IMG/VR virus record: IMGVR_UViG_3300021068_000476
Coordinates: 1-28,772 of that record
Length of the DNA: 28,772 nt
Direction: 5' to 3' (one strand)
DNA from: a virus
Position numbers and translations under genes: made by a program. The notes below the pieces were generated by a model that worked only from the letters and a program-made list of their open reading frames with translations, had not been told where the DNA came from and ran no database searches. This document shows positions 5,085 through 6,537 of the stretch, in pieces. Position 1 is the stretch's first letter; each line of letters opens with the position of its first letter.

Positions 5085-5277
5085 ACATTCTGCTAGATAT
5101 ATAATGAGACAACAAAAGAAGTTAGATAAAAAACTTCGTCGTAAACCTAAAAACATTAATGCTGACGGTGATACTACTATGATGCCTTTACATCAGACAA
5201 TCACATTAGATCATCTTACTAAACCAAAAGTGGCTCCGGGGGAAGGATTCGAACCTTCACGCTCTCCCAAGCAGTAG
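5077..5277 (+). CDS. small basic protein, 3' end antisense to a tRNA
   Basis: ATG 5077 overlaps the preceding stop; an in-frame GTG at 5074 is less likely. The first 40 residues are very basic (many K and R), suggesting nucleic-acid binding. The last 15 or so codons run antisense through the tRNA gene, so the C-terminus is simply the tRNA read backwards. Either the protein tolerates this tail or the original end was lost when the tRNA was placed here. Function unknown. Confidence 0.5.
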   Translation: MAKHSARYIMRQQKKLDKKLRRKPKNINADGDTTMMPLHQTITLDHLTKPKVAPGEGFEPSRSPKQ

Positions 5278-5317
5278 ATAAACAGTCTACCATGTCTACC
5301 AATTCCATCACCCCGGA
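5231..5317 (-). tRNA. type II (long variable arm) tRNA with anticodon GUU
   Basis: Read on the minus strand, the 87 bases fold as a full cloverleaf. The acceptor stem TCCGGGG pairs perfectly with CCCCGGA, followed by discriminator G and an encoded CCA. The D arm is ATG/CAT with a GG pair in the loop. The anticodon stem GTAGA/TCTAC encloses loop CTGTTTA, and the T arm is GAAGG/CCTTC around TTCGAAT. The variable arm is about 15 nt with a GCT/AGC stem, as in Leu, Ser and some Tyr tRNAs. The D arm (TGGAATTGGTAGACA) is strongly Leu-like, yet the anticodon is GUU (Asn codons), position 37 is U rather than a purine, and the discriminator is G. It lies 6 nt after the synthetase-like gene and is probably processed from the same transcript. 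Confidence 0.85.
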
Positions 5318-5323
5318 ACAAAC

Positions 5324-6247
5324 TTATTGCTCTATACCATGCATGTTTGAAAAACTACGTTTAAAGTTTTTGCTTCCTACACGATATGTTGTTGCTCTAC
5401 CTCTTTTAATACTTGGAGGAGTAATCTTCTTATATTCCTCAACAGCACGTATCATTCTAGTCATTCCAATTCCCCCTCCTACTCTAGGTTGAAAATCGTA
5501 ACTTAAGAATTCATTTAGTTCTGCTTCTACTCGTTCCTTACCAAACTGTCCGTATAGCAAGTCAGCATACTGTCCGTCACTAATAGTGTGGAACATGTGC
5601 TTCATTTCTTCCGGATCGCTACTACGTTCAGCTGAGCCTATTGTTTCCTGTCCAGCTATAATAACATCGATCTTAGCCGCAGTTCCGTCACCGTTTTGTT
5701 TCATGTTCCAGAAAGGACTAGTATAGTTTGGAAAGTTCTTAATCATACACACACGATCTTTATACTTGTCGTACATTGATTCTTCATCTTTGTGTGTTAA
5801 TTCTTTAGTATCAAAATCCTTAGCCCATTCCAAGTAGTCTTTAACTACAGGGTTTGAACCAAAGCCCATGTGTTCTGTAAGCTCTTTATTCATAATTTCA
5901 AGGTCTGCAACAGTTCCCGGAAATTCAAATTCAAACATTGGAAATATTAAATCATGGCGGCCTGGAACCGGGTTAGGTTCTTGTCTATAGGATGTTGAGA
6001 CACAAAAAAAGCCCTTCGATGAAGGGCGTGTAAGCAGTTCGTATTCTAGCCACATCTGGCCTGTTTGCGGTAGCGGCCAAACATTGCCGGCATAGTTGTA
6101 TGTACTTACTGTAGTTGGATCTTCACATGCGGCAAGTATGCTTAATCTATTTTGTGTATGGACTTCGTGAAAGCCTCGGTCCAAAAAAAACGACCTTAAA
6201 AGGCCGACGGTACTTGTATATTGTTCTGGATTTATTAACTGGGTCAT
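5324..6247 (-). CDS. class II aminoacyl-tRNA synthetase-like core (Asp/Asn type)
   Basis: The 307-residue protein is a class II synthetase catalytic core. A motif 1-like helix lies near residues 13-30. Motif 2 is SYRQEPNPVPGRHDL (86-100; R88 and E90 typical for ATP binding), with FEFEF after it. KIDVIIAGQETIGSAER at 192-208 matches the Asp/Asn signature region, and motif 3 is GGGIGMTRM at 257-265 with R264. There is no N-terminal OB-fold anticodon-binding domain, unlike AspRS, AsnRS or LysRS. It could be a dedicated synthetase for the tRNA 6 nt downstream, or an asparagine synthetase of the AsnA or archaeal AsnRS-related type, which also lack that domain. The start overlaps the upstream 91-codon gene by 4 nt (ATGA). 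Confidence 0.75.
   Translation of the reverse strand: MTQLINPEQYTSTVGLLRSFFLDRGFHEVHTQNRLSILAACEDPTTVSTYNYAGNVWPLPQTGQMWLEYELLTRPSSKGFFCVSTSYRQEPNPVPGRHDLIFPMFEFEFPGTVADLEIMNKELTEHMGFGSNPVVKDYLEWAKDFDTKELTHKDEESMYDKYKDRVCMIKNFPNYTSPFWNMKQNGDGTAAKIDVIIAGQETIGSAERSSDPEEMKHMFHTISDGQYADLLYGQFGKERVEAELNEFLSYDFQPRVGGGIGMTRMIRAVEEYKKITPPSIKRGRATTYRVGSKNFKRSFSNMHGIEQ
6004..6027 (-). terminator. intrinsic-terminator hairpin inside the synthetase-like gene
   Basis: On the minus strand GCCCTTC-ATC-GAAGGGC forms a perfect 7-bp GC-rich stem with a 3-nt loop, directly followed by seven T. This is a canonical Rho-independent terminator, yet it lies near codons 74-82 of an open reading frame in the same direction. 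Whether it acts will depend on ribosome occupancy. Confidence 0.6.
6183..6206 (-). terminator. second intrinsic-terminator-like hairpin inside the synthetase-like gene
   Basis: On the minus strand CGGCC-TTTTAA-GGTCG gives a 5-bp stem with one G-U pair, possibly extended by A-T pairs, followed by eight T. It lies around codons 14-22 of the synthetase-like frame. It is weaker than the hairpin at 6004-6027 but has the longer U tract. Confidence 0.45.
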
Positions 6248-6519
6248 TGCGTGGTGCTCCTTTTATTAAAGTTAAATGTTTCCGTTTCCGGTATATAGTT
6301 GAAGTTTAAAGTATCCCAATGATTGATTTTTTTAATACTTGTTTCCCAATGACAGCACCTTGTGGCATCCCAGTTAGGTATTCTGACTCTATAATCTTCT
6401 GTACTTCCTTCTAAAGCATCAGTCATGAGCTTTACAAGTTCTACGTCAGTATAGGTGTCAGTAATGGTGTGGGTTGGTGTTTTGTTGTGATTTTTAGTAT
6501 TTTTATCAACTCTTAACAT
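6244..6519 (-). CDS. hypothetical protein (91 aa) upstream of the synthetase-like gene
   Basis: The 91-residue polar protein has no recognised motif. It has an asparagine/threonine-rich N-terminus and an aromatic C-terminal half with a CC pair and several W residues. Its last codons overlap the synthetase-like start by 4 nt, so the two are translationally coupled and may work together. There is no Shine-Dalgarno before its ATG; a GATAAATA late-promoter-like motif ends 10 nt upstream, so the message may have almost no leader. Confidence 0.55.
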   Translation of the reverse strand: MLRVDKNTKNHNKTPTHTITDTYTDVELVKLMTDALEGSTEDYRVRIPNWDATRCCHWETSIKKINHWDTLNFNYIPETETFNFNKRSTTQ

Positions 6520-6529
6520 ACTAAAAGTA

Positions 6530-6537
6530 TATTTATC
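6530..6537 (-). promoter_or_regulatory. late-promoter-like motif GATAAATA
   Basis: The octamer fits the NATAAATA late motif of marine T4-like phages (T4: TATAAATA). It is placed 10 nt before the first gene of the 91-aa / synthetase-like / tRNA unit. In an AT-rich genome an octamer alone is weak evidence; its position after a 93-nt gap supports it. Confidence 0.4.

Follow-up and report, generated by a model that had tools for sequence, protein, structure and literature searches.

Do two hairpins that each run directly into a stretch of T, within the reading frame of a phage synthetase-like gene, terminate transcription of that gene, and might translation decide how often they do so? The locus that raises this question lies in a virus record analysed here over 28,772 bases (hereafter, the window), a stretch that carries phage replication and head genes.

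A putative synthetase gene and its surroundings

The gene (5324..6247, minus strand) encodes a class II synthetase-like protein of 307 amino acids that comprises the catalytic core only. It matches the Pfam family tRNA-synt_2 (PF00152) with 55.4 bits against a cut-off of 25, as a class II core of the Asp/Asn/Lys group, and also phrog_29758, which PHROGs labels as of unknown function; in NCBIfam it falls below every cut-off, with asnS at 19.9 bits against a cut-off of 342.6. An AlphaFold model has the class II core, with a mean pLDDT of 86 and values below 50 at residues 281-285 and 287-307, and its top Foldseek matches are asparaginyl-tRNA synthetases, over about 300 columns and with a TM-score of about 0.62-0.70 by query length. 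A full-length AsnRS with an N-terminal anticodon-binding domain is not matched by a protein of this length whose model begins in the core; we call it mini-AsnRS-like, a putative synthetase. Relatives end at about 265-291 residues, and the additional length of the window protein corresponds to 5324-5420.

Nine phage records carry the gene, the cyanophages P-SSM2, P-SSM5 and P-SSM7 among them. Viral contigs were scanned three times, each time with another query, and every scan returned at least 591-600 relatives, of which the best 80 per query were used. A further scan, of genomes from bacteria and archaea, returned 133, of which the best 80 were used. The resulting 324 loci gave 255 full genes, which together with the window's own were reduced to 163 at less than 95% identity. 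The 145 viral genes among these come from the viral contigs, the phages collection or the window, and are best matches to the three queries. One frameshifted gene (L003) and one cut gene (L073) were left out of alignments.

A 91-residue frame in the list of open reading frames (6244..6519, minus strand) overlaps the start of the synthetase gene by 4 bases; it has no match in Pfam or PHROGs, and the two are likely to share one transcript. It is this frame, not the synthetase gene, that is preceded by a late-promoter-like sequence, GATAAATA (6530..6537, minus strand), which agrees at 7 of 8 positions with TATAAATA, taken here to be the T4-type late promoter motif. An exact TATAAATA lies within 80 nt upstream of the ATG in 56 of the 142 relatives with enough upstream sequence, mostly 28-31 nt 5' of the ATG; chance would supply 0.008 per locus. 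Because the motif is found in only this portion of loci, a model of late-only expression does not hold as a general rule. About a quarter of a first set of loci (15 of 58) have a strong terminator 20-50 nt upstream of the ATG. Repeated ATTTTTTTTGAC/GAG motifs stand directly 5' of the gene start in five loci (L009, L015, L064, L067 and L075), some of them preceded by hairpins. In two others a hairpin of great stability (-17 kcal/mol) and with a T9 run lies at about -1057 (L006) and -1060 (L019) from the gene, inside a predicted frame in L006 and outside any frame in L019.

Two hairpins with T runs inside the frame

Hairpin 1, CGGCCTTTTAAGGTCG (6191..6206, minus strand), in which CGGCCT and AGGTCG flank the loop TTTA, occupies codons 14-19 in the code for the motif-1 helix, and its T8 run (6183..6190, minus strand) fills codons 20-22, TTT TTT TTG, read as FFL. 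Hairpin 2, GCCCTTCATCGAAGGGC (6011..6027, minus strand), with GCCCTTC and GAAGGGC around ATC, has 7 pairs and a loop of 3; it occupies codons 74-79, which encode the loop preceding the motif-2 strand, and its T7 run (6004..6010, minus strand) fills codons 80-82, TTT TTT TGT, read as FFC. Both runs adjoin their stems without a spacer. A first-pass annotation had placed the two sites in frame and in the gene's direction at codons 74-82 and 14-22, and coordinates, frame, strand and codons all agree with the sequence, as does its 7-bp hairpin with seven T at 6004-6027. Its 5-bp hairpin with eight T at 6183-6206 is right in the T run and one pair short in the stem, which has six pairs if one G-U is counted along with a T-A.

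The same annotation saw no comparable hairpin and T run in the window, and this stands. Terminator-like matches number 13 (11 + 2) against a shuffled expectation of 6.4 + 5.7, and hairpins 1 and 2 rank as the top two; as the total is near expectation, only the quality of this pair is unusual. By the d-score formula, the two window sites score 26 and 45. Across the 32 open reading frames of the window, a run of at least seven T directly after a stem of -6 kcal/mol or lower occurs at hairpins 1 and 2 only. Codon-preserving controls, which the first-pass annotation had proposed, point the same way: of 20,000 synonymous recodings of the synthetase gene with the codon usage of the window, 28 contained one such site and none contained two, and 200 recodings of all 32 frames produced no such site.

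Conservation beyond the protein

We counted site 1 as kept where a stem of -5 kcal/mol or lower was followed by at least six T, and site 2 where a stem of -3 kcal/mol or lower was followed by at least five. Among the 145 best-match viral genes, site 1 is kept in 137; the stem of hairpin 2 is present in 129, with at least five T in 125 and at least six in 99, and at least five T follow its position in 127 irrespective of the stem. Three of these genes (L165, L168 and L193) have stems too weak for the threshold at both sites, two distant relatives from huge phages (L244 and L245) are without both hairpins, hairpin 2 is absent from P-SSM2, and the T run of hairpin 2 is just T5 in P-SSM7-like phages. 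A sliding scan of the gene in 264 eight-codon windows picked out no others than those that end at codons 19-20 and 79-80.

Stem stability also exceeds what synonymous recoding yields. In the first set of 58 genes, the observed mean was -6.46 kcal/mol for hairpin 1 and -6.31 for hairpin 2, against -0.41 and -1.07 under a null with the codon usage of the gene and -3.26 and -3.23 under one with the codon usage of each column, a harsher control in which conserved codons are already contained; none of 500 draws reached the observed value under either null. The T runs behave likewise. At codons 20-21, 142 of 145 best-match viral genes write Phe-Phe as TTTTTT, and at codons 80-81 it is 100 of 143, whereas at a hairpin-free control, codons 252-253, this is so in just 3 of 121. 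Synonymous codon variety reaches its minimum in codons 17-24. Codons 77-84 also have little of it, as do further spots of few columns, for example codons 161-168.

The stem partners change together. We used approximate Fitch counts of double pair-to-pair changes at third bases, on a tree computed from the gene minus its hairpin codons, with 928 third-position pairs 3-6 codons apart, hairpin codons excluded, as controls. Double changes make up 34 of 49 at codons 74 and 79 and 22 of 38 at 75 and 78 in hairpin 2, and 9 of 13 at codons 15 and 18 and 10 of 43 at 14 and 19 in hairpin 1, where several stem registers are in use among relatives. The control pairs have a mean of 1.87 double changes, with 12 of 82 as the best, and the best ratio for control pairs with at least 20 changes is 0.20. 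For each hairpin codon we also scanned codons 2-119 for the partner with the most double changes. Seven of the eight picked their expected stem partner; for codon 14, three other partners tie with or exceed codon 19, all with far more total changes. RNAalifold, run de novo on 38 sequences, recovered hairpin 2 together with several other, mostly invariant pairs; it did not recover hairpin 1, whose registers differ.

These observations bear on the simplest alternative, that the sites are by-products of protein and codon constraints, the motifs L-R-S-F-F-L and P-x-x-x-G-F-F-C yielding AGG-TCN, CC..GG and the T runs by chance. The protein motifs do favour hairpins: the column-codon nulls reach about half of the observed stability, and hairpin 2 appears in a mean of 11.7 of 72 recoded bacterial genes. 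Chance of this kind is nevertheless very improbable, given observed values beyond every draw of both nulls, compensatory synonymous changes at the stem pairs and avoidance of TTTTTT at the control Phe-Phe. The first-pass annotation had named stems conserved no further than the protein sequence requires as one outcome that would count against it, and the opposite was found. To judge from these patterns of substitution, the two hairpins are old and under selection.

Joint retention of stem and T run

If pairing alone were under selection, the T runs would be free to go their own way. Instead, hairpin 2 has both stem and run in 125 of the 145 viral genes, the stem only in 4, the run only in 2 and neither in 14 (p = 3e-14), and hairpin 1 has both in 137, the stem only in none, the run only in 5 and neither in 3 (p = 1e-4), in Fisher tests that ignore relatedness. 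Such joint keeping and loss fits a terminator, which needs its T run, and would not be expected of a protein-binding or purely structural role. Synthetases can regulate themselves by binding their own mRNA, as ThrRS does, and the hairpins here, close to the start codon of a synthetase mRNA and with U-rich 3' ends, might likewise bind the synthetase or an Hfq-like protein, or mark the end of a short regulatory RNA. We consider this unlikely: relatives differ freely in the loop sequence and in the register of the stem yet retain pairing and T run, and a protein site would need no T run right behind the stem. Anatomy, conservation, covariation and joint retention together thus support the likeness to intrinsic terminators that had been claimed for the two sites.

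The bacterial relatives (L251-L325, from the best 80 of 133) are 52-63% identical and come from Patescibacteria, Bacteroidota, Rickettsiales-like bacteria and others. The three that were scanned fall below all NCBIfam cut-offs, an ordinary asnS above its cut-off is also present in four of nine genomes checked, and some of the 'bacterial' contigs may be of viral origin. The stem of hairpin 1 is found in 12 of 73 (shuffles: mean 1.4, highest 6) and that of hairpin 2 in 34 of 72 (mean 11.7, highest 22). For hairpin 2, 23 genes have stem and run, 11 the stem only, 10 the run only and 28 neither (p = 8e-4), an association with no difference in third-position G+C behind it (0.43 vs 0.45); for hairpin 1 the association has a p of 0.05 to 0.27. 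Codons 75 and 78 show 14 double changes out of 44, against a control maximum of 9, and the outermost pair of hairpin 2, codons 74 and 79, shows no covariation in these relatives (1 of 48). By these sequence measures, the bacterial genes carry what appears to be a weaker version of the two-site arrangement.

Comparison with terminators at gene ends

At the first 58 loci, with both strands counted, a stem of -5 kcal/mol or lower precedes 98 of 118 runs of at least six T inside the gene, against 31 of 726 elsewhere. On the plus strand of the P-SSM7 genome such a stem precedes 19 of 217 runs of at least five T. By a 60-codon test, three of the 19 lie inside a same-strand open reading frame; two are hairpins 1 and 2 of the synthetase gene, and the third lies behind gp23 in a frame not annotated as a gene. 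Hairpins 1 and 2 are therefore the only ones of the 19 in a same-strand frame of 60 or more codons that matches an annotated gene. By the annotation of the record itself, one site falls in a 25-residue and one in a 44-residue hypothetical frame, and one is antisense inside gp53. The gene-end terminators of P-SSM7 share with hairpins 1 and 2 a G+C-rich stem, a short loop and T5-T8 directly after, but they sit between genes or at gene ends, whereas hairpins 1 and 2 sit at codons 14-22 and 74-82 of a frame of 265-307 residues and have stems (-5 to -10 kcal/mol) weaker than most of theirs (-7 to -16).

Transcriptional slippage

A stem before a homopolymer run could also stimulate transcriptional slippage, as the first-pass annotation suggested for the T runs, with T8 and T7 yielding frameshifted products or rescuing frameshifted alleles. 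Stem-loop-mediated slippage of Roseiflexus IS630 is reportedly the subject of a 2015 study by Penno. Passages of PMC5009743 describe for this element an RNA stem directly 5' of a slippery run, which hairpins 1 and 2 resemble; they differ in having no conserved trans-frame product. In the 58 genes, the -1 and +1 frames close after 1-29 and 0-71 codons at site 1 and after 4-56 and 1-54 codons at site 2, stops at such variable distances that no conserved product results. Slippage at both sites in compensation was considered and rejected, as stops lie in the alternative frames between the sites. One natural variant speaks for slippage: the run at site 1 is T7 in P-SSM5 (L003) but T8 in its relatives, and P-SSM5 is out of frame there. 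Slippage as the function of the sites is nevertheless quite improbable.

The T7 of P-SSM5, at about 2485-2515 of that locus, shifts the annotated gene out of frame. Among loci below L246, only this one, L244 and L245 combine a match that begins beyond residue 2 with over 60 nt of upstream sequence, and of the three it alone has an indel in a T run. The P-SSM2 gene is listed at 741 bp in a 2010 table (PMC3037559) and is 804 bp in the present record, so that older records may contain homopolymer errors; the P-SSM5 run could be such an error or a real variant.

The neighbouring tRNA and a proposed link to charging

The synthetase gene is followed on its 3' side by a tRNA (5231..5317, minus strand) whose anticodon is GUU (Asn) and whose variable arm is long. 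Among the 145 viral loci, 130 have a tRNA within 400 nt behind the gene, with GUU in most; 6 are cut by a contig end and 9 are without. The tRNA has an Asn-like acceptor end, all 28 aligned sequences sharing T1, G73 and the anticodon, and a body of 85-110 nt with a long variable arm (in the window, L202, L050, L001, L085 and others); ARAGORN misses many of these. Its D arm is Leu-like, and the mini-AsnRS may form an orthogonal pair with this tRNA of class II type. The tRNA in the same place is called with anticodon GUC in L021, L022 and L055, by ARAGORN, and with UAA (tRNA-Leu) in L009.

This neighbourhood had led the first-pass annotation to propose attenuation that senses charging. A ribosome lacking charged Asn-tRNA would uncouple from the polymerase, the terminators would fire, and the supply of synthetase and tRNA would track charging. 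The AsnRS-like gene, the tRNA so often adjacent to it, an invariant N33 and an N51 frequent before hairpin 2 speak for such a sensor. The control codons, however, are missing: Asn makes up 0.029 of codons 2-13 and 0.033 of codons 83-268, so that hairpin 1 follows no Asn-rich stretch, and just 40 of 145 genes have Asn at codon 6. The higher fraction in codons 23-71 (0.062) is due to few residues, N33 included. Nor could we find that the sites depend on the tRNA, a link to tRNA supply being part of the same claim; in the 9 loci without an adjacent tRNA, site 1 is present in 7, site 2 in 7 and at least one in 8. The response would moreover have the wrong sign for homeostasis, less charging giving less synthetase. 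A search for antiterminators in the viral genes found a weak excess of complementarity between the 3' arm of hairpin 2 and codons 23-70 (-7.86 own, -7.42 permuted, 0/40), no own-over-permuted signal for other pairings, and no covarying third-base partner of that arm in codons 23-70. Searched against Rfam at gathering cut-offs, the whole window has no T-box riboswitch, the tRNA being the sole match. A charging sensor is, on this evidence, unlikely.

Discussion

The two sites are conserved, covary at synonymous positions and keep stem and T run together. Reading terminator function from their anatomy, we put at roughly 60% the probability that they are two selected, rather weak intrinsic terminators within the frame of a phage mini-AsnRS-like gene that end part of its transcripts early, the second being relieved by ribosomes. 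Near codon 22, and a second time near codon 82, some of the RNA polymerases would let go, and what they leave behind would be short, non-stop RNAs; only polymerases that pass both sites would make the full-length synthetase mRNA and the downstream tRNA. We infer termination itself, its strength and its gating by translation. For E. coli, passages of Li et al. (PMC4824070) describe a terminator 30 bp after the AUG that retains most of its efficiency under translation, and terminators deeper in the frame that are repressed by the following ribosome to an extent set by coupling. If this rule of position applies, as those passages state it, hairpin 1, less than 100 nt into the frame, would be a mostly fixed brake, and hairpin 2 would be relieved by a ribosome close behind the polymerase, so that output would depend on prompt, uninterrupted translation. 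Ribosome masking, claimed originally for both sites, is accordingly at odds with the E. coli precedent for site 1 and plausible for site 2; by this analogy, at least site 2 is probably gated by a following ribosome. The result would be dose control of the synthetase, and of the tRNA where one is adjacent. That hairpins are preserved beyond the needs of the protein suggests that the gene is deliberately throttled.

How does such an arrangement relate to known systems? The attenuators of pyrBI, trp and pheST are ribosome-gated, with the state of translation deciding termination, and they rely on control codons and on a leader peptide encoded separately, ahead of the structural gene, trp also on an antiterminator. 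Hairpins 1 and 2 share with them the proposed principle, but we found none of these three elements; there is no separate leader frame before the structural gene, both hairpins lying inside the synthetase gene. Closer in position are the intrinsic terminators inside the E. coli frames rsxC and narY, which fire when translation stalls and whose formation the ribosome otherwise prevents, according to sections of Elgamal 2016 (PMC5021804). Those were predicted and tested in single genes, and a double, family-wide, covarying arrangement is not described for them in those sections. We found no report of such an in-frame double terminator in open-access PMC text. Terminator screens are usually restricted to gene ends; the 2010 comparison of cyanophage genomes, as its stated criterion has it, demanded that terminators be intergenic or within 10 bp of the end of a frame (PMC3037559), and would thus have discarded sites like these by design.

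More tentatively, and at somewhat short of even odds, we propose that the sites form a two-step transcription gate internal to the gene in many phages, T4-like cyanophages included, and in weaker form in bacterial relatives, the polymerase being released unless a ribosome chases it. If true, this would be dose control that depends on translation, needs no protein factor, riboswitch or leader peptide, and is maintained through synonymous covariation. If functional, the arrangement would mean that a reading frame can hold back its own transcription through a conserved brake, and would offer a clean natural test of ribosome-polymerase distance in cyanobacteria and other hosts.
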